Shown here: positions 10,880 through 52,858 of the stretch, piece by piece
Layout of the letters: the number at the start of each line of letters is the position of its first letter
How positions within the stretch are numbered: the stretch's first letter is position 1
Assembly (NCBI RefSeq): GCF_011397635.1
Contig: NC_064769.1
Span: 20,229,207-20,293,206 of the forward strand
Direction of reading: 5' to 3'
Length of the DNA stretch: 64,000 nt
Origin: Epinephelus fuscoguttatus
Lineage: Eukaryota; Chordata; Actinopteri; Perciformes; Serranidae
Position numbers and translations under genes: made by a program
Notes under the pieces: generated by a model
Told to the model about the DNA's origin: nothing
The model's input: the letters and a program-made list of their open reading frames with translations, nothing else
Database searches by the model: none

Positions 10880-13800
10880 TTAATATTTTAAGGTGTTGAG
10901 AGGCTTCCAGGCATATTTCTGACAGTAAAACATCGTCTGCACGGAGTAGACAAAGCGGAAATGTGATCACTGCTGAGCATTCAGACATTGAACAAGTTTA
11001 CAGCTTGATAGTCATTTACTTACTCCACACTTGAGGGCAGTCCTCATGTCTCTACACCTGTATGCTGACAAAGTGCACGGGTCTGAGAGTAAAAGGAAAA
11101 AAGGGACATTTGAATTTAGTCGTTGATAGACAGAAAATGAACTCATCTGGATAACTGATCATTCTTTATGTAAACATTTGCCGGTTCCAGCTTTTTAAAA
11201 AAGTGTTTTATAAGAGCTTTCTCACTTCAGCCATTTTAAATTGTCAGGTTTAACTAATAATATAAAAGATGGCTACATTAAATGTACCAATACTGTAGCG
11301 AGGTGGCACTTTTAATATATTTGTTATATTGTAATTGTATTTGTTAATAGCTATTTTTTAATTTCATGGTTCAAGTTTACAGATAAAAAAGCCACCATCT
11401 TGTGTATTGTTATAGAGGGATGGGGTGGAGTGAGGGGGGCTAGATGGGCTTCTTCACCAGGGGCCCCCCAGAATCTAGGATCACCACTGTTAGGCAATGA
11501 AGCCCTGCACAAATCACTGATGGAGAAGCAGACTGACCTACAAGTGGAGCCTCCTGCCCTTTACACAGGCGGATTAGGGCGCAGATGGCCTGAGGGGTGG
11601 CGTAGCCCAGGATGGCGTCTATGACCGTCTTGCTAAATTTGCCAACCATGGCCTCGCACTGGACTCGGTAGGAGGGGGGCAAAATCTGACAAAGCTCCTC
11701 CAGCAGCTGGACCACAGCACCCTGCAAAAGTAATAAAGAGGAAGGCGCAGTGTGTCCCAAAGAAGTCGTCAGTACTGTCTGGAGGCATGTAGGCGTCTAC
11801 TTACATGTGTGGGTGTGCAGGACAAAGAGATATTGTGTTTGTACATGTGCATGTGTGTTCCTCCACTGCAGGAGCGTGACTCACCTCAGTCATTTCTCTG
11901 GGCAGCAAGTCCTCCAGGGTCTTCATGAGAAAAATGCAGAAGGTGCATTGTGTTGTGGGATCCACCTGATTGACACAAACAGCAGAGGGAGTTCAGCACA
12001 AAGAGCCTTTCAACATAAAATGATTCTTGTGTCTCTCTGTGTTGTACTTTACTGACATTCTCACTTGTCACAGCAACCTGAAGGGCCTCCCTGACAAAAT
12101 AATGGAGCATCTTCTCTCGCTTGTGACAAGAGCCACAGAGCCCAAGGATTTTGCAGACATCTGCTGGTTTCTACAGAGAAAAAGATGTGTTAAGAATAGA
12201 CCTCACCATGACACACCATTACTATTCTACCACTGCTAACATGTATGCAACTTACCACAACACCAGTAAGGAACTGGATGGCCATTGGAAGCATCTTCTC
12301 CACCTGGTCTTTGCACAGTTTGGCAGCAGCTGGCCCTGGCAGGTGGTCGCACAGATTTTCAATGCCATCCATGATCTTTTTCTGAAATAAATCACCAAAT
12401 TAGGTTTGTGGTCTTTAAACCTGGTCATATTACGAGTATAAATCTAAAAATTATCATTGATTTTAGAAAAAAAGCAACAGTGTTCATCCTGCCAGCCACA
12501 ATCAAAGGTCAGAAGACTGAGTGGTTGATTTCCTGCCAAAATTAAATGTATTGTGCCCGTGTTTTTAATGTCCTTCACCAAGGCATTTCTCTTTCTCTTA
12601 AATGTTCATGACAAGATAAAACAAACAATAACACAGGGATAAAAAAGGGGTAATCTTTGAGCAGATGCAGTGCAAAGCCAGTTGCATTGTGGCTGGTCAA
12701 GGTTTAGCTTTTATCATTGAAGCAAACATACAGTCAGGTCCATAATTATTTGGACAATGATACAGTTGTCATCATTTTGGCTCTGTACACCACCACAATG
12801 GGTTTTAAATGAAACAATGAATACCTGCTTAAAGTGCAGACTCTCAGCTTTCATTTAAGGCTTTTTTTTTTTCAAAAATGTAGTATGAACCGTGTAGGAA
12901 TTACAACCATTTCTTCACACAGTCCCCCGACTTTAAGGGCTCATAAGTATTTGGACAAACTAACATAATCATCAATTAAACAGTCAGTTTTAATACTTGG
13001 TTGCAAATCCTTTGCAGTCAATGACTGCCTGAAGTGTTGGACACATAGACATCACCAGATGCTGGGTTTCTTCCCTGGTGATGCTCTGCCAGCCCTTTCC
13101 TGCAGCCGTCTGCACTTCCTGCTTGTGTTTTGGGTGTTTTGCCCTCAGTTTTGGCTTCAGCAAGAGAAACGCATGCTCAATTGGATTCAGGTCAGATGAT
13201 ATGACTTGGCCATTGCAGAACATTCCACTTCTTTGCCTTAAAAATGTCTTTGGTTGCTTTTGCAGTATGCTTCAGGTCAATGTCCATCTGCACTGTGAAG
13301 CATCGTCCAGTGAGTTTTGAAGCATTTAGTTGAATCTGAGCAGATAATGGTGCCCCAAACACTTCAGCTTTCATCCTGCTGCTCTTGTAAGCAAGACAAG
13401 ACTTCACTAGAATAAATACAGAGGGTTTATCACAAGATGCAAACCATTGGTTAGCCTTAGAAATGGAAGGCCAGATTAGAGTTTGTCAAAAACCGTCTAA
13501 AAAGCCTGTACAGTTGTGGAACAGCATACTATGGACAGATAAAACAAAGATCAACTACCAGAATGATGGGAAGACAAGAGAAGGAAGAAGGGAAGGAACT
13601 GCTCATGATCCAAAGCACACCACCTCATCAGTGAAGCATGGTGGAGGTACTGTTATGTCATGGCCATGCATGGCTGCCAGTGGAACTGGTTCTCTTGTAT
13701 TTATTGATGATGTGACTGCTGACAAGAGCAGCAGGATGAAAGCTGAAGTGTTTTCATTGTTTCATTTAAAACCCATTGTGGTGGTGTACAGAGCCAAAAT

Positions 13801-16800
13801 GATGACAACTGTATCATTGTCCAAATAATTATGGACCTGACTGTACACTGAGTAATACATAAATAGTTATAATTAAATAATTTATTAAAACAGATTCTAT
13901 GACAAATTTGTTTATTTTTATTTGATTTTACTTGTCTTTTAATTATTTTATTTAAATCATTTAAATTTTACGTTACGTTTTTTTCACAACAGTGAAGCAG
14001 TCACTACCCCCTCACCTGTCAACCAATCACGTGCCTCCAAACGGCTCATTAACGGCTAGTTAGCTAGCTAGCTCCGAAGCAATAAAAAAGATAAAAGCCT
14101 CTTTTTGCTGTTTACAAAGCAGTTTCTTTCTCCAAGGGACATCCTCCGAGTCACAAAGCTGCCGAGGTAATTGAATTTAAAAGCCAGCCTCTGTCATTAA
14201 CACCAACTTTCACTTAAATGCCAAATAAAAGAGGCTAAATAGCGGGCTAGCTAGATAGCGTCTGTGGCCTTGTCAAGCCAGGTAAGGCATTGTTTTGGCA
14301 GTAGCTAACAAGAGCTAGCTGGCAAAATGTGGTAGTAGCTAAGTGATGAATCTAGACGTTGGGTATTTTAAAACAGTAATTTCTGTAATTAACATTATAT
14401 GTAAATACTCTACAACCCTGCTGACCTTACAATGAAAAAAAGTGAATTATAATGAGGCAAGTTTGTATTATTATTCAAGCTATTTCCCCATTTATTGGTT
14501 CCGCTATGTATTGGTTCATTAGGCTATCTGTTTAATCATGTCTCATTTATACTTTTATTTGATAACTTGTGGTATCCAGCCTTGCAAATATGGTAGTTTC
14601 AGTTTTACCTAATGATCATTTTAAGATAACTAAGATTTTTGCTGCCAGCCAGACACAATGGAGTTTGCATCTGTTTGTGGTGCTTGTAGCAAAATTAAAT
14701 TTAACAAACCTCTGGCCTCTTTGGGCAGACTTTTGTTTACTGCAGGGGTGTCCAACTCATTTTAACTTGGGGGCCACATGCAGCAGTTTGACTCCAAGTG
14801 GGCCTGGCCAATACACCATTGCATAATAACCTATAAATATCAACACAGCCAAGTTTTTCTCTTTCTTGTAGTGTAAAGAAGTACAGTGATATTCTGAAAA
14901 CATTCACAAAACAGATGATGACCAGCCAGAGAAAAATAAGGTTAATGTTAAAAAAAACATATCTCAGTTTTTCCTCCTTCGGTCAGTCTGCTATTTTTCC
15001 ATAAATCACCACACCAAACTTCAGTGGAAGCTATTGAGGAAGAAGATGAAGTCATCACCTGCCTCACAAATCATTTACAAATCTAAAGCTTTGACAGTGC
15101 CATAGAAATACGACTCCTCCAATACTGTTTTAAGATAGAAGTCTGATACTGATTTTTTTTTTTTTTTTTTTTTACTGAAGCTGCTAAATGACAATATTTT
15201 TGCACAAAGTTCAATATTTTTAAATAAAGCATGATGAGCATGCATTGGTTTTTTTTTCTTCAGAGAGCTGGAGTCTGGTCAGTGTGGAAAAGCCTCTGAA
15301 GTAGCATTTTACATGAGGTAGTTACTCCCTGTTGAACTTGCTCCTGAAACCTGGCACCTCATAGAAAGAGCATCAAAATAAGGTGTCGAAAGTCATCCTG
15401 TGAGCCAAGTGGACCCTTTGGCGAGCAGGTTCTGGCCCACGGGCTGTATGTTTAACACCTGTGGTTTGCAACAGAGTCTGAAACTGTTTGACTACTTTTT
15501 CAATGCTTTTAAGGTGATACTTCTTATTGTGTCAAACTATCAGCGTCATTTACAGGGATGTGTTCTACATACTAGGTGGCAGTGGTTTTGTTGTAACCAC
15601 ACTTTTTGTTGTTGCATCTTTACATTTTGCCTTGTGTAGCAATCAGAAATTTATAACATCAGTGAATTAAATGTTATGTATATACTGAGACAACTCTATC
15701 ATTTTTTTTTATTCACAGCTACTCAGTTTTCCAACCCATGGTTTTCACCAAAAAAGAGGCAAAGGTGAGGTGTGAAATCTCTTGAAGTCTGACCCCAAAT
15801 AGTTAATAGAAATCATAGAAAGTAACCAGTTTTACTTTTCTTTCTTAGATGGGACTCTCCACAGACCAAAAGCTCAGAGAAAAGAGGAACTTTAAGGTCA
15901 GGTGAGAAACGATAACTGCCTGTGAAATTTCATTTCAGCTTTCATTAAACATAGAAAAACAGGAAGTGGCTTAGCACCAAAAAGAAAAGGAGACCTTTAC
16001 TGTGCATGTGTGAATTTTCACTGTATGCACGACTGATTATAAATGATTTGCATCTCTGAATGTGAAGAATGTGCTTCACCTGACAAAAGACCAGGTGGAA
16101 TTTAAAGTGTTTTTTTATATTTATTCAATAAAACTATTCAACCACAGATCGTAGCAAGCACTTGAGATAGCACATTGTGTATTTTAATCTGGACTTATGA
16201 ATATGGACACACAGTATCAATGATAATATCAGTGAGCAAATATTAATCCTCTAGAATGTGTTTGCTGCGACTTTTGTACTCACCTGGAGGTCCGCATTGG
16301 AAAACATGTCAGCGAGGAGTGTAAATATTTGGGTGCAGTCCTGGCAGACATCCCCAGTCTGAACAAAAAGTCAAAGTCACATAAAGAAAATAAATGAAGG
16401 CCTTGAACTGATTCACTCACTTCCACAAACCACGTGCCTCATTCAACATTGTTGCATGCATAAGATGGATGTGTGAATGTTACTTCTTGTTGTCAAAAGA
16501 CTGCTGTGTTTAATGTTACTCCCCCTATTTCATCAGGAAAAATTTCCGTGGCTGCATCAGTTGTGCTAGATTCAAAAGGGAAACATTAAAAAAAGTGAAA
16601 GTTGTATACATTAAATCAGTGTTTCCCAACCAGGGGTCCCTGAGGGAGTTCTAGAGGGCCCTTAGAAAATGTGAATTTATATTTTGACTTTTTACTTCAC
16701 AATAGAAGTGGGCCCAATGTGAGTAAGTGTGCTTTTCATTGCACTAACTTATGCTTCCTCATATCCTCGTATCCTCTCTCCTCCTGTGACCCAGAAATCC

Positions 16801-29400: not shown

Positions 29401-29522
29401 GCTTCACCTGTACAACCCCTTGGGCGAGGCCTCGGTGCCTCGCACTCAATATAAAGAAGGTGACAGTACCGCTAACTCCACATTGGCAAGAGAAATCTTC
29501 AAGTCTATCTTCAAAGACGCAG
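29360..29522 (+). promoter_or_regulatory. Peroxidase gene core promoter and non-coding first exon
   Basis: A TATAAA box lies at 29450-29455. The first exon probably starts about 29480 and ends at 29522 (GACGCAG, then gtaaga). It contains no start codon and is spliced to 29632, two bases before the ATG. A purine-rich ETS/PU.1-like element (GGGAAGAAGGAAGTG) lies near 29370-29384, which fits myeloid expression, but this is inference. Confidence 0.5.
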
Positions 29523-29633
29523 GTAAGAAGATTTTGTTTTTTTGGTTTGGATGCTTGGATTGCTGGAGAAATAGTTTTTGTGCATACCTTTTGACAAATG
29601 CAAATAATTTAGTTTTTTTTGTGTATTTTAGAG

Positions 29634-32600
29634 ATGCTTTTCTCTGTCCTTCTTCTGCTGGGCGTCTGCCTGGTTCCTGCTCACTCCAAAGCAACAGGTA
29701 GGCTACGTTCTTCACTAACATTGAAGTCATTTTGTCACAACTGATGAACAGCTTGATAGATGTGTTGTCTCTTTGCAGGAGAACATCTCGGCAGTCCTCT
29801 CCTTCAACAATGTTTTGAGGAGGCCAAGAAAGTTGTGGATGATGCCTACAAGTACTCCAGAGAAGAGTGAGTTCACCTCATGGAGTTTTTCATCTCACAG
29901 AGTGAAATAGTAGATCATCTTTCAAATTAATTCAAGTATGAATGTACATGTTTCTTTAACATGCAAGCCATTCGTTACATTAGCTCTGTAGCTCAGTACT
30001 TGCAAGAAAAGGTTACCGAAGCTCCAAATAATTTGCATTTCATTGTTCGCCTCTATGACTCTTCTCCTCCAGGAGTCTGAGACGAGTCCGCAGAGAGGTG
30101 GTGCGCCCTCATGATGCTCTTCGTCTCTTGAAGCAGCCCCGTGGTGACACACGCTCTGCTGTTAGATCTGCAGACTACATGGCACAAACCCTCAGTCTGT
30201 TGCAAGCGAGGGTGCATCACAGGAGCAGACGCTCACTCAATGCAACAGGTCAGACATGCAGCACGCAAACAAAGACAATACAAACAGTGCCTGCATTGTT
30301 TTTCTGACAACTTTTCCTGGTCTTGGTTTAGGGTCTGAGATTTTCTGTTTCCTAATGTGGGCATAGTGAATGCACTTCAAAACTGTCATGAAATACAAGA
30401 TATATGAAGTTGACATGCACGCACCCATTGTGACATCTGAAATATGTCTCTCACATTTTTCAGATCTGCTGTCTGAAGAAGATCTGCGGAGGCTCGCCAA
30501 CATAACTGGATGCGCAGCTCGAGTTGCTATTCCATCATGCCGCACCACACCAAACCTCAACAAGTATCGCACAGCCACCAGTGTCTGCAACAACCTGTAA
30601 GAGAGACACTCAAGTTCTTTTATAAATTCTTGCTTTTTTAAATGTAAGAAGCAGTTTGTATTTTGACGTCTGTGACATAACATAAAAAAACAGATGTAAT
30701 TCATATAATATCAGATCTCAAATTTAAGTCCTTTTCTCAAACAATTTAACCAGGCACATTTCAACATTAGCAAATGTCTTCATTGTCAACTTTGTTTCCT
30801 CTTGCTTGTCAGAGTAACAGTTTCCCCACATGCATACTATATTTAGTTAAAAAGCAATTGTAGCATTTCTTTTCAAAAAGCAATCTGTCTTGAATTAATG
30901 GAAACATGTCGGGTTAGTGAGATTGAATGTTGCTTACATTTAGAGGAAATGCTTGTGAAATAAACCTAAACATCTTAGGCCATACACCACAGAAGTTGTG
31001 TACACTTCCCCTCGATTTCTCAAGCAGCATTTCTAAACATGAATGTCTTCTCTTTGCTTGTAGAAAAAACCCTCGCCGTGGAGCCTCCAACACCCCCTTC
31101 GTCCGCTGGCTACCTGCCGAATATGAAGACGGCATTTCCCTACCGAAAGGGTGGAACAATCGAACAATCAACAACTTCTTCCTGCCACTGGTACGACATC
31201 GAAATCCCAGACACTTGTTTTGATTACATAAATGCTGATTTAAAATTTAACAATTCTCCTTGGCTCTCAGGTGCGACAGGTTTCAAACAACATCCTAAGC
31301 ACAACAGATGCAGGCGTGGTCAGCGACAGAGAGTTCACTCACATGGTGACCTTGTTTGGGCAGTGGAACGACCACGATCTCACCTTCACGCCCTTCTCCC
31401 CTAGCATCCGCTCCTTCAGCAATGGGATCAACTGTGATGAGAGCTGTGAGAGAACTGAGCCATGCATCCCCATCGCGGTTGGTGTGACAGCATAAATCCA
31501 AACATTGAGATGTTGTTTTCACTAAAAGCTTCTCTCCATAACCTTTGGTCTCTCTTTCCGACAAACAGATTCCCCCCAACGACCCCCGGTTGCCCACTGG
31601 CCCAGACAGCTGCATCCCTGCTTTCAGATCCGCCCCTGTTTGCGGAACTGGATTCTCGGCCTACAATTTTGGCGGAGAGCCTGAAAAGAGAGAGCAGATC
31701 AATGCCTTGACAGCCTTCCTGGACCTCGGCCAGGTGTACGGTTCTGAGGAGATGCTTGCCCGGGATCTTCGCAATCTCACCAGTGATGACGGCTTGCTGC
31801 GTGTGAATACAGAGTTCAGAGACAACGGCCGTGAGCTGCTGCCTTTCAGCCCTCTCCAAGCGAACATGTGTGCCACTCGCAAAAGAGTCACCAACGATAC
31901 CAACGCCAGAGAGGTGCCCTGTTTCCTTGCAGGTTAGTCATAATGCAAGTTTATTGTAACTACTAGCTTCATCAGTGGTTAATTAAAAATTTATTAATGC
32001 TCTATAGATCAGCAATAAGCCTTAGGAGTAGTAATAGGAAGTTTGGGTTATGAAAAAATCTTGTATATCATGTTTCAGCTGTCTGTTGAAATGATCTGGT
32101 AACACTTACTTAAAATTCCCCTATTTACCATTTACAAAAAATATGTAAACACCAGTTCAAACACATTGCCCTTTGCGGACAACAAAAGAAACCCACAAAT
32201 GTATTTTCTTTGTTAAGATTTTGAAATTATGATAATCATCATATTATCTTAGTTTAATTTCGTTTCAGTGTATTATGGTCCTTTTCCTGATAACAAGCTT
32301 AACAAAAGAAATTGCTAGTAGGCTATGCAGATGTCTCCGTAGCTAACTAGCTAGCTAGCCAACGCTGTACTTTGATTTTCTGATTTGAGTATGACAGCCC
32401 CACATTTTGAAATATTCACACGTTTTCCCCAGATATGTCCAGCTGTGAAGTTGCGGCACTTGTTACTGCTCCTCTAATTTCAGAGCAGACTGACAGGGTA
32501 GGAACATGGGTTGCTAGCGTTAGCCTACAGAGCGCTACTTGTAGCCTGGTAATGAAGCGGTATCCTTTTATATTTGATGACTTGTTTGATCGATTGATAG

Positions 32601-35600
32601 CGTTAAACTTAAGTTGTAAACACATTGCGAGTGTTCTGGCAACAACGTACACCAGCAGTGTTCTTATATGTATAAAGCATTAAGAAATAATGAAATAACC
32701 ATTAATAAAGTCATTATTTACAACTTATAAAGTCCTAATAGAAAGAGGTGCCAATCTAAAGAAGAAATGAACACTTCTGAACAACTATTTGTTGTGTACA
32801 TTTCTGTCTGTAAGGTGATGTCCGTGTGGACGAGAACATCGCTCTGACATCCATTCACACACTGTTTATGCGTGAGCATAACCGCCTGGCTCGTGAACTG
32901 AAGAGAATAAACCCCCACTGGGACAGTGAGACACTCTACCAAGAGGCCCGCAAGATCATGGGTGCCTACACACAGGTCGATAAACCTGAGAATCAGTCAG
33001 CATTCATGATTGTATATCTCCGTACACTCTTCTGTCTTTTACTCAACATAGATCTCTGTCTCTTGCAGGTGTTTGTGTTCAGGGACTATCTGCCTCACAT
33101 TGTTGGTGACGTTGAAATGCGTAGGCGGCTTGGCCGTTACCCTGGATATAATCCCAACGTTGACCCCAGCATCTCCAACGTCTTTGCCACAGCAGCTTAC
33201 CGCTTTGCCCACTTGGCCATCCAGCCAGTCTTATCCCGTCTGGATGCAAACTACAGGGAGGACAGTCGGTTCCCAAGTGTCCCCTTGTTCAAGGCCTTCT
33301 TCACCCCCTGGAGGATTGTCTTTGAGGGTGAGTTGTAAAGAGCGAATAGTAGTCACTAAGTCGCTCCGTCTGAAACTGTCGCCCTAACATCTATTTGATC
33401 TCTCAAGGTGGCATCGACTCTCTGCTCCGTGGTTTAGTCGGCCGTCCTGCTAAACTGAACACTCAGGATCACATGATGGTGGATGCTCTGAGGGAGAGGT
33501 TGTTCCAGTTTGTGATGCATCTGGCCTTGGATCTGGGCTCTCTCAACATGGAGAGGGGACGCGACCACGGCCTGCCTGGTACATCCCTCACTCTGATTTT
33601 CTTTTCTACGGTTTCATCTCTTTTTTAATTGTCGTCATCTGCTCTTTGCTCACTTGTTGTTTACTCTTCCAGGCTACAATGCCTGGCGCAGGTTCTGCGG
33701 CCTGTCTCAGCCCAGGAACCAGGCAGAGCTTGCTCGGGTCCTGAACAACACCAACCTGGCTCGCAGGCTGCTGCAGCTCTACGGCACACCCGACAACATT
33801 GACATCTGGCTGGGAGGTGTGGCAGAGCCGTTTGTCCGAGGTGGCCGTGTGGGGCCTCTGTTCGCCTGCCTCATTGCTCAACAGTTCCAGAAGATCCGCC
33901 AGGGTGACAGGTCAGTATGTGTGTGCAGACATACACTGATGCTAACATAGCCACACAAATAAATGCATTCCACAGTCTCTGTTGACAATCATCTCTTGTT
34001 TTAAAAATCAGGCTCTGGTACGAGAACCCAGGTGTCTTCACTCGGGCTCAGAGAGCCGCTCTGTCCACCGCCTCCATATCCAGAATCATCTGTGACAACA
34101 CCGGTGTTACGTCTGTCCCCACTGATGCCTTCGGTGTCATCTCAAACAGGAACCGGCTTGTCCGCTGCGGCAACATCCGCCGTTTGAACCTGTCAGCCTG
34201 GAGGGACCCACCCTGTTCAGGTGAAACACTACTGGGCTGAACTGCAGGGGAAGACTCTCAGCTCTGAATTCACAATCATTTGTCACCTACTGTATTTTTC
34301 ATTCTGATTTTAACCCGGTGTGTTTATCTCTTCGCTAATCACTTGCGTGAAAATCGGTCTTCACATGTGGTGTTTGATCTTGCAGGGCCGGGTCATAGCT
34401 GTAAGGAAGTCAGTGGAGAAGAGGTCGGTTTTAAGTACAGTACTAACAAGTAGTAGTAATATTTTAATGAAGCCAAACCTCCTTAAAAAAGTTCACATTC
34501 AGATCATGCAACACCTGTTGTCCCTAACTTTTTATCATGTTGGTGAAGGTGTTCCTCACTCCAAACCATTAAGTATCTATCTGTGCTAGTATCAGTAAAC
34601 CATTCATGGTTTACTGATACTAGCACATTTTGCAAGAATTCCTTAAATTATGAGGGAGAATAAGTTTAACTTCTAGATCTGCTGGATTTACAGACTGTGA
34701 ACGAACTGGATCCCCAGGACTTCGAGGACCTGCAGGACGACGAGGGCCTCCTGGACAACGAGGTAATCTATTCAGTTATCGTCTGTTTAGCCTTTTGTAC
34801 ATTTTATAGAATTCTCAATGCTACAGAGTCTTCAATCTTCATATTTATCAAGATGAAAACAAAACATTCACAGGTTTACCCCAGATATAAAATTAACAAG
34901 CCCAAACTCATTATTCTCGTATCTGGTCAACTTCAATGAAGCACATGAACTATAAATAAACATACGTCATATAGAAATCTTCAAATGCAGTTTATCTTTG
35001 TAAGGTACACCCATCTTTTATCTTTTTAGGCAACTTTACTTTTTGTCCACTTTATTATAGCATCTCTATGAGGGTGATTTCTTTAACTAAACAATGCATC
35101 ATGTTTTAGAAAAGTGGTTGTCAAACTTTATTAAATAACATACTCCCTGCAAAAAAGTGTACGTGTCCAGCACAAAAAAATGTTTTTGTTAGAAACACAC
35201 AAAAGTAAAGGTGAACGTGATTGCGTTTGTTGTGGCTGGATAGTTAACAGTCGTTAAAATATAAAATGTGGTTTATCGATTTCACATTTACATTTTTGAT
35301 TTAACTTATTCTAGCATAGTTATTTTAGGCGGTATGTATCACAGATGACTCACATACCCCCCTGCAGTACTCCAGAGTACCCCTAGGGGTACCTGCACCT
35401 GTGAGAAACACTGATGTAGAAGATGATCAAATATTTTGTATGGAAAATTGTCTTTAAAATAAATAATAACTATGTAGTGGAGTACAATATGTCATCCAGA
35501 ATATAGTGGAGTAGAAGTATTAAGTATTAGCAAAAGGAAATACTCAAGCACAACCATCTCAAAGGCGTACTCAGGGCCCTGACGCACAAAGCTGACAGTT

Positions 35601-36822
35601 GGCCATCAGTCAATGTCGGGTCGTCGATGAGCATCTGTCGCCTTTGTGGTGTGTCCCACTCAGTTGGCATTAGTCAGCCCTTGTTGGCTTTTCTACGGTC
35701 GATTTAGTAGATTGAATTGGTGTCGGAGATGGTGGAGCCTGTCAGTGTGTGAAATCACTGTGACTGACAGTTCAACTCTGCGCACGATAAGACAAATGGA
35801 AGCAAGTAAATCAGCCAAACAGCTAAAGTCAAGAGGAAGTGAGATCAAAGCAAACATGTTATATTAGGTGAAATTATTTTTTTAGCCACTGAGCTTTTAA
35901 GCAAAATCAGTTCATTATTGTGTCTGCTATTGTTCACCTGCGTACAGTATCATTTGTCCTTTCAATATCAAGGTGCGTTGTTAATGTGCAAACTGGCTAA
36001 CTACAGTAGCATCTTGAATCTGTTCTGTCAGTCCTCTGACTTCTCTTTTTTAATCACTAATGACTACCACTGCCTGCTGGTGTGGAGAGTTATTTCCTGT
36101 CATGCAAGTGCAGAACATACATGCTGGTTGGCCGTTGGCTGTAGTTTTTGTGGTGTGTATAAGTGCAACGTTTTTGTTGAGACACAAGCAGCTTGAGACA
36201 ACACAGTCAGCTTTGTCGCCACAACTTCTTTGATGACAGTTTGTTGTGTCAATTGAGTAAATGTACAAAGTTACTTTCCACTTGTAGATAATTCATAACA
36301 TAGCAGCAGATCAGAGTGTTTTATCAAACCAGATTCAAAGCCTTTTGAAATAATCTATACCTTTGTTCCTCTGCAGGTCCAGTAGGACCCCCTGGCCCGA
36401 GAGGCCCTCCTGGACCACCAGCACATGACATCAATGCTACACAGTCTCAATCTGCCTTCGCCGTCCGCCTGGGCGAGTACAACCCATCCTCAGAGAAAAT
36501 AATTCATTTCCATCAGGTCATCTACAACAAACAAAACCATTACAGCACAAAGACAGGCATGTTTACATGTGTCATCCCCGGTGTCTATGAGTTCAGCTTC
36601 CTTTGCACGTCCTTCATCAGTGGGGGAAATATCAACCTGCATCGTAATGACGAGATGGTGCTGCACAGTGTAAAGGTTTATCAGGGAGGTTACCACTTGT
36701 CATCAGGAGACACGGTGCTCCAGCTGGAGGCGGGAGACACAGTGTGGCTTGAGGCCAGTGACGGGACCTCTGGCCTGAGCACCAAGAGCTTCTTCTCTGG
36801 ACACCTGCTCTTCCCTGTGTGA
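29634..36822 (+). CDS. Secreted haem peroxidase (MPO/EPX family) with C-terminal collagen repeat and C1q domain
   Basis: Fifteen coding exons: 29634-29697, 29779-29866, 30073-30248, 30464-30596, 31064-31190, 31271-31477, 31569-31932, 32815-32975, 33069-33327, 33408-33578, 33673-33910, 34012-34220, 34386-34400, 34694-34762 and 36377-36822. Phases all join, giving 908 residues. Order: signal peptide (1-18), propeptide ([13 protein letters not shown]), animal haem peroxidase domain (about 130-728), eleven Gly-X-Y triplets (743-775), C1q domain (about 780-908). Active-site residues by alignment to MPO: Gln227, Asp230 and distal His231 ([10 protein letters not shown]), Arg390 and Glu393 (GDVRVDEN), proximal His488 (YRFAH). 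MPO's haem-linking Met is Asn394, so an MPO-type sulphonium bond is not expected. Family members oxidise halides or thiocyanate with hydrogen peroxide. Closest relatives are teleost mpx/epx-like peroxidases; exact orthology is not resolved. Confidence 0.9.
31933..32814 (+). other. Peroxidase intron after coding exon 7
   Basis: An 882-base intron. An open frame at 32435-32683 and GCTAGC-rich DNA near 32340-32360 may be repeat-derived. No peroxidase coding sequence is missing here: the flanking exons join PCFLAG to GDVRVDEN as in relatives. Confidence 0.5.
34582..34627. repeat. Perfect 46-base palindrome in peroxidase intron
   Basis: Two 22-base arms (34582-34603 and 34606-34627) are exact reverse complements with a TC spacer; the arms begin TGTGCTAGTATCAG. 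It lies in the 293-base intron between the micro-exon and the collagen exon. Confidence 0.9.
34763..36376 (+). other. Peroxidase last intron
   Basis: A 1.6-kb intron with a non-autonomous hAT-like element at about 35112-35413: left AGTGGTTGTCAAACTT, right GGTACCTGCACCTGTGAGAA then ACACTG. A GCTGACAGTTGGCCATCAGT-type repeat lies near 35590-35720. No coding exon or promoter-like element was identified. Confidence 0.5.
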
Positions 36823-37310
36823 CACAAGCACTCTCCAGACTGAACCACCACCCTTAAATATGCCAGTGGTCTGTCTGCTTCAGGATGTTATTCTTTACTC
36901 AGCCTTTCTGCACTGATTTTCTCTTTCCATTAATCACATCGTCATAATATTCTATCAAATTTTGGGCCAATGGACCAGACAAGGGCACATCATGCAGCTG
37001 TTTTATATTTCTCTGAGTAATTAAATATATATAGTTTAAGCAAGCAGCCAAATGAACAAATCAAAATGAAATTTACTGCAGCAAATTTACTCAGCTCTGT
37101 TACAGCATGCAGTTTATTGGATTGGAAGTTAGTCTGTAGCCAATTTTGATGGCGGGACCAGTATTATTATGAATATTATGTGCACTGAAGAAATTTAAGC
37201 ATGCCATGAAAATATTGTGTCTTGTGCTTTGTCTGTGAGGCTTGTTTTACTGTAACTTTATCTGTTATATTTTCAGTTCTATGAATAAACAAAAGAAAGT
37301 GAGCCACTTT
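36823..37310 (+). other. Peroxidase 3'UTR
   Basis: The TGA at 36820-36822 is followed by about 460 bases of AT-rich DNA and an AATAAA at 37284-37289, the probable transcript end. Confidence 0.6.
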
Positions 37311-38101
37311 TAATGTTGTGTTCATGTTTTCATATTTCTGAGACATTAGAAATCAATTCAGGCATCTTATGTGAGTCACAAAAAGAGAAAAGACTAACTA
37401 AAAGGTAATTTAAATGCTGTTAAATTGGGCTTATTTAGACGGTATGAAAGCACAGGACAAACACACAACATTATGGCATAAGCGCAATTTGTGAATTAAA
37501 GGAAAAATGCATCATTTTAATATACAGTATGCCTCCTGTAGATGGAGCCATTGTTCTTTAAACAAAATAAATGTACACTTCATGTGGTGGCAGAACTGCT
37601 TTATCCTGTCAACTAGGACTTGAAAGCAGTGCATCTGAAAAAAAAAATGTTCCCATCAAAGTCACAGTTGTCCTATTTACATCTCATAAGTTAATCCTTA
37701 AGTGACCGTCCTCTGTGAAAGCACAACACAAAGTTATAAGTCAAGAGACAGTTTTGCAAAAATCCCCTTCTTTCATACTTAACCTACATCTTCAAAATGT
37801 TACATCTCATTCATAAGATATAGAGAAATGCACCCCAGTTTACTTGCTATTCACTGTCCCCACCATTTTTAAACATGCTGAAGTTATTAAGGGTCACTGG
37901 TGTCAGAATGTACCCGCGGTGACCTGGATACGGGGGAAGGATAGACAAACTAACACACTAACATTTGCAACTGCGGTTAGCTCACTGAATATTCTCCAGC
38001 CCACCTGGGCTGCATGTGTTCACAATGTGAAAGGAAAGTGGAGCGTCAAGATGAAACAGGTAATGCAAACTTACTGTATACAGGAAGGGTCAGTGCTGAG
38101 A

Positions 38102-43692: not shown

Positions 43693-45869
43693 ACAGCACA
43701 TGTGGAAAGTGACAATAGTTGAGTGAAGAAATAAAAAAAGAAAGCTTGACGGAGAAGTTTAAATGCCGATGACAATCATAGCCTGATTGGGTGGGCGTGA
43801 TTGTCAGATTGTTGATTGGGAAAAGTTAAAGAAGTCTGATTCAAACATTGACAAGGTGTGGGTGGGCGGGGGTTTCAGACACTACTCCATCATTTGACAG
43901 CTGAAGCACTGACACGTTTAAGGAATAGTTTGATGCTTATTCACCTTACGGTGTAGAGTTGGATGAGAAGATCGATACCAGCTGTCTGATAAATATGAAA
44001 CTACAGCCAGCAGTCAGTGATCATAGCTTAGCCTCCTAGCTTGAGCAAGGCCCTAAACCCACAGCTGCTCCAGTGTTGCTCTGCGGCAAACAGATCAGTC
44101 CATTGTTGTACTACAGGCCATTTCCAGATGTAAATGTGGGTGACTGTTTGAGTGGGAACATGATGTTCCTAAAAATGAAAACACTGTTCTCAGTATTTCT
44201 ATTCTGGATTAATAACAGTTTATTAAATTACTCCATATGACCTACTTTTCCCCATGTTAGAGCCACTTGCCTCTATACTGTCTCTATAGGTGCTATCAGC
44301 TAATACTTTCAGTTGTAGCACTATTTGTGTCCGTATGTGATTCTTATACTGGCTCATTCGCAGACATAAGAACAAAATCTGAAGAAATAAGAATGTAGAG
44401 TTCGTCTAAGGAAATATCATAAGCCCCCACTTCCCCAAACAACTCCCGCAGGAACTGTTAAGAAAATGGCATGCAGCACTCCAATATTATTTGCAGTCAT
44501 ATGCCCCGAGTGTCTGGATATGGGACACTGATGATTGATCTGTTATGAGGTCACAAGGGATCTGATTTGTTGTCTATAGACTTCTAGTACTTTGTTTTTA
44601 AAGATGCATAATAGCTCACTCTGGTAATAAATCTCTTGTATGTTATGGACAAAAGTCTTCCCATGTAAACCAAATTTTTGGCTTTGAAATCACTCGCTGT
44701 TGTAAAACTTTGTGATTTGAGAAACTGTAAAGTCTTTGTAAGCACTTGCTGTGGTTTAGCAGCCATGATGTGGTCAATTGTGTAGATGCTTGAAAGAATT
44801 TCCTGGTTTGCTCGACTGAGGAAAACGCAAAACCTTGGATTAAGTTTCCCCAAGCTATGCATTATATCTGGTGTTCATGGCAGGGCGGTGATTTGACTGG
44901 GCTGCTGCAGAGGACTTAGATTTATCAGGAGAGGAGCGTGGGGTCACCAGCCTGCCACCACATGCAGTAATGCAGATATCAGGTATCACCACAGCCTCAT
45001 CTTGTTTGTTGCTCAGAGCAGACTAATTATGACCTTATAGAAAATGACTGTGAGATGCATGTGATGAGTGTTGCACGTTGTCAGCAAGGCTCCAACACAG
45101 ACAGGACAGGGTGGAGGGGGGTTTGCAGGAGATGGTTTCCCAGAAAAAAAATTAAACTGTTGCAGGGCCATCAAAGAGTCATGTTTAGGTTTCTGAGATC
45201 CTCCTATGAGAAAGTGGAGTGCAGAGACTTCTGGCAGAGTGTGTTGCAATTTAGTTGGGAGTTCATCCAACAGTCAGGGAAAAAAGCTATTTATCATGTC
45301 ATTCTGTTGATCTGGCAAAGAAAGAAGAAATGAGGACAATATACAGTAGTTTCTAGGGAATTGGTTGTGGTATTCATGTGAAATTCATCCTGACTGAGAA
45401 GGAAGAAAGTCTGCATCTGTCTGTTTTCATCTGCTATGGTTTGAAAAGTGCATCTGTTTGTGAGGAGGAAAAAAACTTTCACTTCTTGTTAGTGACACAC
45501 GTTAACTGGTAATAACCACTTCTCACTGGGCCAGACTGAGCAGTTATCAAACACACTTGGCTGGGCATGATCACACATCACGTATCCATCCAGTGGTTAT
45601 ATGAGCAGCAGCACCAGACTTGTATAACAGATTCAGAAACTCCAAATGCTGAACTCCTCCTCCTCATCATCTCACTGGGCGCATCTGCAGGCTGCAGGAG
45701 CAGAGCGATATGAGTTTACACGGATACATTTAAACTAAGCTTTTCCTCTCTGCTCACTGAATATCCCTCAAAAAGAGATGAGGGATTTTTGAATTAAAGG
45801 CGAGTAGCAACTCCGGCTCAGTTGAAATACTCGCTTTGTCACATTCAATCTAATTGAATTGAGATCACA

Positions 45870-48800
45870 ATGGGATTACGCATATTTGGCACGCCACTTT
45901 ACGCATATGCGTGCGTCTATTTTTTTGTTTTCATCCTGCAAGCTGTCCGGTCTCAAACCAATCCGGGGACTCAGCAAGGAGACAACCAAAGAGCGGCTCT
46001 CCGACAGACGCTACAGTGGTCTCACAACGGCAAGGTCTTTAGCATATTGAGCCAGGGGTCGGAGTACCAGCCACCGAGGCGGAGGGGCGCACCTCAGGAG
46101 CAAGTGCAGGCGCGACCTGTCACCATCATTCGTGATGCGAGCGTGAGACAACCGGACACTCCGAGCCAGCCGGCGGCCCAGCAGCAGCAGCCTCCCCGGC
46201 CAGCATCCAACCCTCACAGCCCCCGCGGGCTCCCGCCTCCGCTCCAGAGGCTCCTGAGAGGGCAAGAGAACCGCCAGCATCCCCATGACCGCCCCGCTGA
46301 GCGCACGGAGACGCAGAGGAGAAGCAATGACACCGAGCAGAAGCTCACTGTCAGCCCACCTCCGCCCCGGAGAGAAGACATGATGGTCGGTGATGACCCC
46401 TACGACCCCTACAAGTCCATCGACAGCGATAATCCGTATTACAATCATTATGACGTCTACGAGAGGCCGAGGTCGAGATCAAGATCGAGGCCCGGATATG
46501 GAACAAGCTATCATCAGTACGGTAAGAGTGGAGAAAGTGTTCTCAAGACTACACTAACCAGATAGATATGACCCTTTAAGTGGAGTTGTTTCAACTCTGG
46601 GGGGACACACATATTTGAGTGAAATTTTTGAGTATCAAACACTTAATTTCCTGCGTTCTGTTAACTTTTACGCACCAATTTGTGTCTTTTCTGCACCAAT
46701 TTATGGTGTCTAATTTGGTCAAAATAAAAGTCCTCTGCTACTTTAATGTTCATGCACTAAATAGTGAGGTGAGGACATGCCCCCCGTGCCCCCCCTGAAA
46801 TATACACCTATGCTAAAATGCTTCCAGTGTGTCAGTCAGTTAGTGTTGTCTCATTTTAATTTTCTGCATCTATTTGGCATCTGTTAAAGTATTAGTTTGA
46901 GAATGACCCATATTCATTTACTGACCTGGTTTATGTACCACATATTTATTATAATGCTGTATTGTTGTTATAGGTCTGCCCGATCTCGTACCTGATCCCT
47001 ACTATATTCAAGCCTCTGCTTATGCCCAGAGAGTCCCAATGTACAACCTGAGATGTGCTGCTGAGGAGAACTGTTTGTCAAGGTAGACTCACGTCAGAAC
47101 TTATCCACAGTGAAAGAGAGAAAAAAAAAAGATGGGGTTTACATCCAAGTCTGAGTGTGATTCAGAGAGCTTTGAGCCATAACAACCACCTAAAGTGTTT
47201 GTGGGTGAGGGCTGCCCAGTGGAACCATCAGATGAGGTCAAATTAACCGAATCCTGCCACTGATGGTGGAGACGGGGTGGAGTGGAAGTTTAATCATAGT
47301 TTGCCCCGAGGAGAGAAAGCCCGAATGGTAAACACATTATCGAAAACTAACCCAAACAACCACGTGCCTCCAAACTATTTTTCCAGCCTCCATATACACA
47401 TAGACTGCCTTCACTCAGACACAGAGAATCTGCTCCACTCAGACGGGGGGGGGGATCGAGCAGGAAAAACAATCTTAGTGATGTAATTGTGTCCACATAT
47501 GACCTGTGTCTTTTTTTCCTGCTAACTTATGCTCTTCCTTTTCTTCATGTCGTCAGCTCGGCTTATTCAGCCAGAGACTATGACACCCGTATGCTGCTGA
47601 GGTTTCCTCAGAGAGTCAAGAACCAGGGGACGGCGGACTTCCTCCCCAGCAGGCCACGTTACTCCTGGGAGTGGCACAGCTGTCATCAGTGAGTATAATG
47701 TCATGTCAGTGCTTTCCACCTCATCATCACACACAGAAAGAGAAAGTCTCTGAGACTTGTGGCTGCTCTCATGTGTCATTTGTTCTCATTGGCCAACATG
47801 CTGACATCAATTGTCTGAATCAGATACAGATCAAAAACATTCAAATGTTACCTTACTCATTTGTTTTTAAAGGTCCAGTGTGTAGGATTTAGTAGCATCT
47901 AGTGGTGAGGTTGTAGAATGTAAACCTCTCCCACATGCCAAGCGTGTAGGACAGGAGAATGCAACCTGCGGCTACAGCTCTTAAGCTCTTCTCCAGTGGC
48001 TTTGACAAAAATACATGGAAATGAATCAGTTCAACATTTTAATTTTCATTTATCATTGTTGTAAGCCTAAAGTGATTCTTACATTCTTCAAGTGTAAAAA
48101 TGTGTAGTCTTTACACCAAATAAACAAACACTTGTAACATTTTGTAAACTAAAACATGTGTCGTAAATCAATGGCCTGGCACTTTAACCTCTCCATTTCT
48201 GGGCTAGCTATGGATTCCAAAAAGTCTCGCCATAGCTGCAAAGCTGAGGTACCAAATAATCATAAATTGTCCAGTGGCCCAGTCTACCATGTGGTAAAAT
48301 AAATTAATGAATGCTCATTTAGACCTATCAATAATGTTTATAGGCTAAGTTAGATTGGCAGTTCAATCCCCGGCTCTTCCAGACTGCATTTCGAAGTATC
48401 CTTGAGGAATATACTGAACCCAAAATCGCTGTTCCTTCGGTGTGTGTGTGTTAAAACAAACTGAGTAGCAGGTGGCACCCTGCCTCAGCCACTAGTGCAA
48501 AAAAAAAAAAAAAAAAAAAGCACCTTGAGTGGTTGGAAGACATTTACCATTTACCAGGTTGCTGACCGTGGTGTAGAAGAACCACAGTGGCCGACCTGAA
48601 AATGTAAATGGCCCTGTCTAGAACCAGCGCTTCATTTTTTCGTTCTGGGCTATTGTAAAACAACATGGTGGACTCCGTGGCAGAGGCAGGCCCCAGGAAG
48701 TGCACCAGACCTTCAAGCTAATTTGGCATAGTAGCCAAACTGTGTAATTACAACCTCCAGGTCCATCACATGATGCCATTGGAACTTTTCCCTATAGACT

Positions 48801-51800
48801 TACATAGGGAAAGGGATGTTTGTAAATCAGTAGTTAATTCTTTCTGAGCATCGTAACCCCCACGAGATGACTCGTTTCTCTATTGGGATTTGATTCATTC
48901 TGTCTGTAAACATTTTAAAGGTTTAGAAGAGCTGCAAGATTTAATCATTTTATCCCTATTCAAGTAAGCAGGGCGCTAAACCGGAAGTAGCTAGTTAACT
49001 ACTCGGCTGGCGAATTCTCTTGATGCAGGAGATCCGGGTAATTGTACACTTAAGAAGTGAAACTTTTTTGGCTTCATTCACTACTGAGCAGCTTCCATAG
49101 CCCTGCCTCCAACAGCTTATTCAAAGGTTAGAAAAACACGATTCTTATTTTCAGGTGTTTATGCACTAATGAAAGCATAGGTATGAATATTATATACCAT
49201 TTCTCCCCCTAAACCCCACACACTGGACCTTTAAGAGTTTAAATTGCAGATGGAATATTTTCTTCACACATTGTCACTCTGTAGTTGTTTTGTACATCAT
49301 TTACAAATATAAGCAACCACTTCTTTCTAGCAGTTTTCTTCACTACATCATTTGTCTTCTCCAGCCTGTAGTTGTGGTATGGCACCCCCTGTTGAACCAC
49401 AGTTGTGTTACTTTTGGCTGTTTTATAGTTTTGTTGGCTCTTTTATTGCGTTGCAGGGATTTGGGTATCAGGAATGACATCTTAAAATGAGTTTTAATTG
49501 CATCGTCAGGCTTTTAAATATGTCATTTTCTACTTTTGCAAACTCGACATAAAGGCAGTGAAATGGGCTGTGACTGTGACTGAACTGTGTGTGACCTTTG
49601 CATTCAGTTAATTTATAGCTGCGAAGCCAGACGTTGTAAAAGAAAGTTCTGTGATGGAGATAATGAGCCAAAAAGGAAAACTGCTGGTATGGTTGTCCCT
49701 TTATTGAGCACATGGAAAAGTGCCTAGTTTTCCTTGATTCTGCAGAAACTACCTCAGTCCATAGTTATGTTGTGAAACAACCAGTTCACTGTGCAAATCC
49801 TCAAGATGGAGCACACATGGCAGAGATCCAATAAACTGTTGATGTAGACTGTATAGAAATTTTGTCAGTGTTTTTAAAGTCGACTTATGTTAAAATCCAG
49901 ACTGTTTTTCTCTCATTAAACAAACTAAGATAATGGAGTTACAGCAGAATCAGATCCACTGTTGCTCTACATGAACATGATGAATTAAATTAACACCTGA
50001 GATGTTTGCAGTCACAGCAACTTGTAGCCTGGAACTTGTCAACATTTAAAAATTAATCTGTAATTATGTAAATGTGGCTCAGGAGCAAAAATGGTCCCTG
50101 GTGAGACTGAACGTGACAAACAGCACATGGTTGTTTTACTGATGTTGAACTCACTCAGTTCAGTTTATAAACGCCTGCAGCTGTTGAACACTGTCGCTGC
50201 TGATCCACAGGCACTTCCACAGCATGGATGAGTTCAGCCACTACGAGCTGCTGGATGCCTCCACTCACCACTCGGTGGCCGAGGGCCACAAGGTCAGCTT
50301 CTGCCTGGAGGACACTTCCTGTGACTACGGCTACTACAGGCGATATGCCTGCACCTCACATACACAGGTCTCAAACATACCTATTTAAAATATAACTGTT
50401 GAAATGTTATTATTAACTTTAAAAGAGCTATAATGGACATTCAGAGTGTTTCTGTGACTTAGAGTCTGGGCTGGGATTGTCTTCACACGGCTCTAAAGAT
50501 TGATGATGCCTCTCCACTTCCTCCCAGTGTACAAAAATGAAGCCAAAATACCTCAGATGCGAGCGCTGCCATCTTGCACTTTTGGAGCCAGAGTCTGCAC
50601 AGTAGAAAGCTGGAGCTGTAGTATCGAGTTTCTATACACCAGCGCCATTGATCACGAGCACACCAGTGACACACACGGCTGTCAATCATGATGTCGAATT
50701 CCTTTTTATAGCATCAAATAACTTATTAAAACCAAACATATCAGAAAAAACACCTGGCCTGCCTTCAGTGACAAAAACCATCTTCTGGAAAAAAAGTTCT
50801 TTGATGTGTATTTTGATTTTTTATTTCAGCTCATGTCCCATCCGATAACACTGAGGGGGCGGGTTTTACGATCTATACTGCAGTCAGCCACGAGGAGAGA
50901 ATGAGAGGTTTTAGCATCACTTTTGGGGAACTTTCATGCCGTCCATCTTTATATACAGTCACAGTCAAGGCAGCAATACATGTGCAGCTCCTGAGTCCAA
51001 GACAGATTTCCCCACAGGGACGTATCGCATCATACAACAAAGTACAGAGAAGCGCGGATTACAACACACACAGAGGAAGCATGACTTCATTCTTTTCACA
51101 GGACGCCATCACTCCACTATACCTTTAAATTGCAAATAGTAGTTTGCTACTGTATTAATGCTCTGAATGTCATGTGGAGCTCCTTTAAAGCTGCTCTTAT
51201 CAACAGCTAAAACCTCGGATAAACCAATTGTACACTTCCTGCTCAGCACCAAACGGCAGACAGACAACACCAGCGATTACCTTGTGGACACAGTGAAGAA
51301 TATAGCAGCTAAGGAGATGGATATTTTCCTCAGGAGTTGGTGGAGACCAAATACAGAGCTAAAAGAGAGCGCACATTTTTATTATATTTATCATGTGGCC
51401 AGAGACATAACTCCAAATGAACAATAATGCTGCTTTGTGTCAGCTGGATGTGTAAATAAGCAACTTTTTGCTAGCAAGACTGCCACATCAACTATATAAA
51501 GTTATCATACGTCAGTCTGCTGTTTACAGGTTGCTTTGGGCTGCCCCCAAGTGGCCAAAGGAAGGAAGCTCAACAGGCAATTAGCTGCTGTAAATAAACA
51601 TGATGCACAGAAACATCGAAATAACACAGTGACATAACCCAAACGATGGCTCTGCTCTCGTCAGCTGTCACAATAGTGGGATAGTGAGCCAGCATGCACA
51701 ATACAAGGACCATTTCATTATTTATATGTGTGCTTTTCCTATCGTGACATGTCAAATTGTCTTCAGTAAAAAAGATCTATTTGAATTATTGTGGTTGCAA

Positions 51801-52858
51801 AATAAAAGCCAGTTCACATCAAGACATATAGCTATAACAATACTAAAAACTGCAGTGATACCCTGCTGCGCATTCACACTTTAATGGTTTAGTGTCATTT
51901 GGGTTTAGATCAGATTAGAGGGTAATGACTTCTAATGACTCGTTTCTCATTAAATGACTTGGTTGTAGGATTTTGCTTTATACATTCCTTAAAATGGAAA
52001 AGAGAGTAACTTAGAAAAACAAGCACTCTATTTGTGAAGCAGCCGCCCTTTAGAGAACAACTTCAGTATTTCCTTTTTGCACAAGCCAGTGGTGATTAAA
52101 TGATTTCCTGTAAGATGATCCCACCTGTCTGGACGTCTGTGATCAGTTCTGCTGCACATGATTTATTTTTTCCATCCTGTTCTTTTCTTTATTTTGACTG
52201 GCTGATTTCTGTCTTTCTTCGTCTCTGTTTGTCTCATTTTTTTTTATCACAAGTGTTATATACTTACCGTTAGATATCAGACTGTACTACTTTGTTACAG
52301 ATACTGCTCTGTATGTTAAAGGGAATTATTTGTTTGTTTATATAATATGTTCATGTGGATGGTGTCCAATGTGCAGGGTCTGAGCCCAGGATGTTATGAT
52401 ACCTACAACGCAGACATCGACTGCCAGTGGATCGACATCACAGATGTGAAACCTGGAAACTATATCCTCAAGGTCTGTCCAAAAAACCAGATGACATTTA
52501 TCTCCCTCGTGAGACACTAAACCCCTTTAAAGAATTGCACCTGGTGTGGAGTCACCTTGTATCCATGAGTGTATGTTGTTTATTTATCTTTGCTGCAATG
52601 TTATTGATTCTTATATATCAGCCACATATATTTTTGTTCTCACAGGTCAGTGTAAATCCACACTATCACGTCCCAGAGTCAGACTACAGCAACAACAACG
52701 TGCGCTGTGACGTTCGCTACACTGGCAACTACGCCTACGTGTCAGGATGTCACATGTCATCGTGAGTGTCATGTCTCCAGTGACAAATATCTCTTTGATA
52801 TTTCTTGCATCCTCCGTAAATCATCATGATATTTTTATTCTCTTTTTTCAGGTATTAA
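45870..52858 (+). CDS. lox: Protein-lysine 6-oxidase (lysyl oxidase)
   Basis: A secreted copper amine oxidase that deaminates lysines in collagen and elastin to start cross-linking of extracellular matrix. Seven coding exons: 45870-46521, 46974-47082, 47557-47688, 50211-50367, 52377-52472, 52646-52761 and 52852-52858; 422 residues (human 417). Order: signal peptide (about 1-28), arginine/glutamine/proline-rich propeptide with [23 protein letters not shown]1-type cleavage site MVGD at Gly174-Asp175, tyrosine-rich DPYDPYK, and the catalytic domain. Copper-binding histidines are in [13 protein letters not shown]. The LTQ cofactor residues are Lys in [11 protein letters not shown] and Tyr in [13 protein letters not shown]. 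The final exon adds only Ser-Tyr-stop, as in human LOX. The propeptide and catalytic domain are intact; the class is LOX itself rather than LOXL1-4. The paralogue (loxa/loxb) is not assigned. Confidence 0.95.
47867..49234. mobile_element. piggyBac-like miniature transposon in lox intron 3
   Basis: TTAA stands at both ends (47867-47870, 49231-49234), followed by inverted repeats AGGTCCAGTGTGTAGGATTT (left) and AAACCCCACACACTGGACCT (right). A TTAA duplication is the piggyBac signature, though the family is not proven. A partial SINE (about 48350-48560) with an A19 tract lies inside. No transposase. Confidence 0.6.
48350..48560 (+). mobile_element. Degenerate SINE fragment inside the lox intron element
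   Basis: CAGTTCAATCCCCGGCTCTT resembles a SINE B-box region. The tail AAGCACCTTGAGTGGTTGGA then AGAC, ending TTTACCATTTACC, matches the family at 22662. Separated by a poly-A run at about 48500-48519. Confidence 0.5.
50368..52376 (+). other. lox intron 4
   Basis: A 2-kb intron. Part of it (about 50480-51560) looks repeat-derived, but I could not delimit ends or family. No coding exon: exons 4 and 5 join CTSHTQ to GLSPGCYD as in human LOX. Confidence 0.45.

Follow-up and report, generated by a model that had tools for sequence, protein, structure and literature searches.

Fish MPO serves as a neutrophil marker, and human MPO and EPX are, to our knowledge, made without a collagen stretch or a C1q domain. 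In adiponectin, C1q, and collagens X and VIII, a collagen stretch precedes the C1q head. Peroxidasin carries added domains as well, which differ from collagen and C1q. Peroxidasin is reported to be a homotrimeric multidomain peroxidase that is secreted to the matrix (PMC5377774). A published relative of the gene analyzed here is the MPO of the flounder Paralichthys olivaceus, PoMPO (XM_020082562.1), whose 2313-bp ORF, encoding 770 aa, was amplified from cDNA. PoMPO is described there as a peroxidase domain with a signal peptide, a propeptide site at 98-104, and a calcium motif at 312-319, and the words "C1q" and "collagen" are absent from the main text (PMC9908613).

Here, we examine a peroxidase gene in a 64,000-nucleotide stretch of the Epinephelus fuscoguttatus genome (the window), on contig C18, in which a collagen stalk and a C1q head can be read in frame with the enzyme.

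Results

The original prediction of 15 phase-compatible coding exons and a 908-residue frame at 29634-36822 was reproduced in its exons, its phases, and its 2727-nt CDS, with GT-AG borders (Table 1). Coding exon 1 was recovered by a signal-exon scan too, and further AATAAA motifs in 34221-37400 lie at 34955 and 35458. The 908-residue frame contains the propeptide site RSRR (residues 101-104), LTAFLDLG at residues 312-319 by hand count, and eight N-glycosylation motifs. Part of intron 14 (36050-36292) matches a stretch of locus L028 on contig C6 and is probably a repeat.

Table 1. Features of the C18 peroxidase gene (positions in the window)
Feature	Position	Strand	Remarks
TATA-like box tataaaga	29450..29457	+	by eye, upstream of the gene
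Coding exon 1, start codon 29634, signal peptide	29632..29697	+	signal peptide judged by eye
Exons 2-12: propeptide and MPO/EPX-type peroxidase	29779..34220	+	
Exons 2-5	29779-29866, 30073-30248, 30464-30596, 31064-31190	+	
Exons 6-9	31271-31477, 31569-31932, 32815-32975, 33069-33327	+	
Exons 10-12	33408-33578, 33673-33910, 34012-34220	+	
Exon 13, alternative	34386..34423	+	15 nt, 38 nt, or skipped; 23-nt donor too
Exon 14: encodes collagen triplets (fusion frame) or an acidic tail (other frame)	34694..34762	+	
Exon 15: end of the Gly-X-Y run, then the complete C1q domain	36377..36822	+	domain codons from 36454
AATAAA signal after exon 15	37284..37289	+	

In this frame, Pfam finds An_peroxidase at residues 144-703 (617 bits, model 1-530 of 530) and a complete C1q domain at residues 787-905 (91.5 bits, model 1-127 of 127). 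Between them lies an unbroken run of 11 Gly-X-Y triplets, counted by eye, and the Pfam Collagen model scores 24.3 bits at 743-775, below its cut-off of 27.2. Domains and triplet count agree with the earlier claim that an MPO/EPX-type peroxidase leads through 11 triplets into a full C1q domain in one frame. The peroxidase–collagen–C1q fusion is real in the genome; the in-frame genomic join that had been claimed stands, whereas the 15-nt exon 13 (34386-34400) proposed with it is one of several readings.

By alignment, the catalytic Gln, His, and Arg of MPO/EPX/LPO-type enzymes and the proximal His are kept, as are the Asp and Glu that link to haem. A Ser of the calcium site is Gly here. The roles of the distal Gln, His, and Arg, of the proximal His, and of the Asp and Glu haem links are given in PMC5437232, with PMC10679500 as a further source. 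The Met of the MPO sulfonium haem link, MPO specific and numbered Met-409 in PMC5437232, aligns with Asn in the C18 protein and in both C6 copies. Human MPO scores 680 bits as full chains, or 567 for the heavy and 93.9 for the light chain, and human EPX, compared as two chains, scores slightly above the MPO chains (581 and 96.6). Bit scores thus place the peroxidase domain no further from EPX than from MPO. Because the MPO-specific Met is Asn and the EPX and MPO scores are alike, an EPX- or LPO-like haem is expected.

Splicing at exon 13 probably decides which frame is read. A 15-nt exon (to 34400) gives the fused 908-aa protein, and skipping the exon gives a fused protein of 903 aa. With a 38-nt exon (to 34423), the frame is shifted, exon 14 encodes an acidic tail, and the second codon of exon 15 is followed by a stop, leaving exactly 770 residues, without C1q and ending LLDNEVQ; a 23-nt donor (34408) would lead to the unfused frame too. 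With a donor matrix, the 15-, 38-, and 23-nt donors score 0.65, 1.0, and 0.22 bits, respectively, which is not decisive since three accepted donors of the same gene (exons 6, 8, and 10) score below zero.

The flounder MPO bears on this choice. Its length of 770 aa (PMC9908613) is that of the 38-nt reading, and its propeptide end at 104 and calcium motif at 312-319 have the residue numbers of the C18 protein. Of the primers given there, the ORF-start primer matches the C18 gene at 17/22 bases and the internal primers at 18/21 and 17/18, while the qPCR forward primer reaches 13/20 at best, no better than chance. The qPCR reverse primer, which covers exon 13 bases beyond the 15-nt donor, matches 17/20 with the 38-nt exon vs. 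13/20 with the 15-nt form, and the ORF reverse primer, carrying the stop of the 770-aa frame, matches 18/21 across the exon 14/15 junction. Against the original prediction stood the possibility that transcripts always end before 34386; in flounder they do not, since the last of these primers spans exons 14 and 15. Given the length, the primer matches, and the co-linear motif positions, PoMPO would in this reading be the C1q-free product of the flounder counterpart of the C18 gene.

Family searches, run exon by exon over the whole genome (1.047 Gb, 26 contigs), gave at least 113 C1q rows, with 150 of 152 candidates scored, and at least 49 peroxidase rows. When the two lists were inspected, a peroxidase row was seen beside a C1q row at two places, the window gene on C18 and a locus on C6 (L019), where a second peroxidase continues in frame through 8 Gly-X-Y triplets into a C1q domain. 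Such a diverged second fusion elsewhere in the genome indicates that the C18 join is more than chance. Among internal exons 3-11 of L019, seven of nine are sized as in the C18 gene and two differ by 3 nt. In the hand model, which we use, a 51-nt collagen exon with phase-1 junctions on both sides is followed by the C1q exon; the automatic spliced model takes another acceptor and a 105-nt linker exon, which is also in frame. The collagen exon lies only 106 nt past the last peroxidase exon (exon 12), so a separate C1q gene on C6 is implausible. With no exon 13 in this layout, the fusion at C18 would most simply arise by skipping, a 15-nt exon being possible. An assembly chimera was considered as the source of the C18 fusion and is unlikely, because the C6 locus has the same peroxidase–C1q join.

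The tandem C6 peroxidase (L020) ends WRENSP-stop, without stalk or C1q head. Just past the stop, at about 5360-5410, there is a relic that shares 21 identical bases with the C1q end (E 3e-6 in 4700 bases); one of its frames reads GLTEDSYFSGHLI. A deletion of the stalk and most of the C1q head is the likely cause. On C4 (L021) there is a further MPO-like peroxidase, which clusters with that on C14 (87/89); no C1q match was found within its 10 kb.

The two fused C1q heads are 52% identical and are mutual best matches among the 42 domains compared. In a tree of these 42 domains, made up of the two fusion heads and 40 others chosen manually on coverage and spread (the remaining 71 of the 113 C1q rows being left out), they are sisters at 100/99. 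In a seven-row peroxidase tree, the C18 peroxidase and the two on C6 group at 100/100; human MPO joins this fish clade at 88/90 in the tree, which is without EPX and LPO, and a PXDN-like row from the same genome falls outside the fusion clade, so that no grouping with peroxidasin is seen.

The mat2a-like, saposin-like, and peroxidase genes have like order and relative orientation on C18 and C6, the Pfam names for the window neighbors being S-AdoMet synthetase and SapB_2, but the block is only partly shared, as the 120 kb of C6 that were searched gave no match to lysyl oxidase. The two loci fit duplicates of one block, presumably from the teleost whole-genome duplication as the simplest source. 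With sister C1q heads, one peroxidase group, and a shared block, a single fusion older than the C18/C6 duplication would explain both fused genes.

Other features of the window were noted along the way. The saposin-like gene (11440-16370, minus strand), surfactant protein B-type by eye, has a SapB_2 match of 32.9 bits on one exon and a paralogue on C6. The lysyl oxidase-type gene downstream (45858-52765) has a Pfam match on the exon near 52.7 kb, and its first exon, judged by eye, has none. Pieces resembling a Tc1-type transposase were seen by eye at 13033-13828, and one ORF scanned there had no Pfam match. Other window–C6 matches, near 5.7, 13, 21.7, 38-39, 43.5, and 62 kb, are probably repeats.

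Only the fusion frame is open through exon 15, over 147 codons, and the other two frames are cut by stops into 5 and 7 pieces. Between the C18 and C6 C1q exons, dN is 0.50 and dS 1.76 (NG86), giving a dN/dS of about 0.28 with dS near saturation, and differences by codon position are 48/43/67 (p 0.048, a weak test). The open frame, the full-length C1q match, and dN vs. dS against C6 argue well, though not conclusively, for translation of the fusion frame.

Discussion

The interpretation of the C18 gene as a fusion, as originally offered, gains from the C6 paralogue, the C1q tree, and the absence of a local C1q start in the region scanned; it had missed several readings of exon 13, and the published flounder relative uses a form ending before C1q. 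A separate C1q gene starting inside 34240-36377 is an explanation to which we give almost no credence. The 1.6-kb intron before the C1q exon could hold a start, but a sequence scan found none there: no Met lies in frame upstream of exon 14 or exon 15, and 34240-36376 holds zero candidate signal-peptide exons, a weak test since shuffled sequence averages 0.2. The short distance between the collagen exon and the last peroxidase exon on C6, as well as the flounder ORF primer across exons 14-15, speak against two genes.

The other alternatives concern what the C18 gene makes. It could mainly make the fused protein, by the 15-nt exon 13 or by skipping, with the 770-aa flounder form minor or species-specific. 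This is unlikely: although the C6 gene model is fused without a frame-shifting exon and the C1q exon is conserved, both flounder reverse primers, for the ORF and for qPCR, agree with the 38-nt form, whose reading matches the published 770-residue length exactly. Considerably less probable again is that the 38-nt exon is always used at C18, C1q being transcribed and untranslated there and the fusion made by the C6 copy only. The flounder form without C1q agrees with such a remnant, as does the tandem C6 copy, whose loss of C1q would make the head dispensable at that locus. They have to be set against a 147-codon open frame, a full-length domain match, an unbroken Gly-X-Y register, and a dN/dS of about 0.28 against the C6 copy, although this value averages both lineages and is still compatible with recent relaxation.

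The reading that we prefer, and consider probable, is an ancestral fusion in which splicing of exon 13 sets whether the product has a C1q head, with secretion, trimerization, and targeting as putative properties of the fused protein. As the counterpart of flounder MPO, the gene would encode a teleost peroxidase of MPO/EPX-like type and descend from an ancestral peroxidase–collagen–C1q fusion. Inclusion of the 38-nt exon 13 would shift the frame, so that a 770-residue enzyme ending in an acidic tail is made, as in flounder; if the exon is skipped or only 15 nt long, the product would have 903 or 908 residues, respectively, and bear the collagen stalk and C1q head. Stalk and head, carried on the heavy chain, would trimerize and bring together three catalytic units, and the C1q heads may keep this source of oxidants attached to microbes, matrix, or immune complexes. 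We are evenly divided on a more specific version, a conserved splice switch with a frame-shifting 38-nt exon and a dual-frame exon 14, by which one leukocyte gene would yield either a free or a trimeric C1q-guided peroxidase, the fusion predating the C18/C6 duplication and having gone unnoticed in the flounder MPO paper. The only transcript evidence comes from flounder and concerns the unfused product. Further points against the preferred reading are the short collagen stretch with its sub-threshold Pfam score, the low and closely grouped donor scores around exon 13, the loss of C1q from one C6 copy, the lack of a lysyl oxidase match in the C6 region covered, and the chance-level fit of the flounder qPCR forward primer.

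In the flounder study, the gene was treated as a plain peroxidase in both description and tests. If the C1q-headed form is also made, enzyme and recognition module would be united in a single polypeptide in fish granulocytes, and studies of the 770-residue form would capture only part of the gene. The head could turn a free antimicrobial enzyme into a target-anchored one.

Among the matches listed from the open-licence literature, judged by titles and the starts of abstracts, no report of a peroxidase–C1q fusion was found, and the available parts of PMC11788884, PMC11312191, PMC7588623, PMC8147184, PMC10679500, and PMC5437232 mention none. Human MPO and EPX have the peroxidase domain and the catalytic and ester-link residues in common with the C18 protein. 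The best solved-structure matches of its C1q head are adiponectin, C1q, and collagen X, yet in the C1q/TNF superfamily (adiponectin, C1q, collagen X/VIII) no enzyme is attached, and the C18 stalk has only 11 triplets. With peroxidasin as the other case, the locus would allow a test of whether targeted peroxidases that form trimers had more than one origin.
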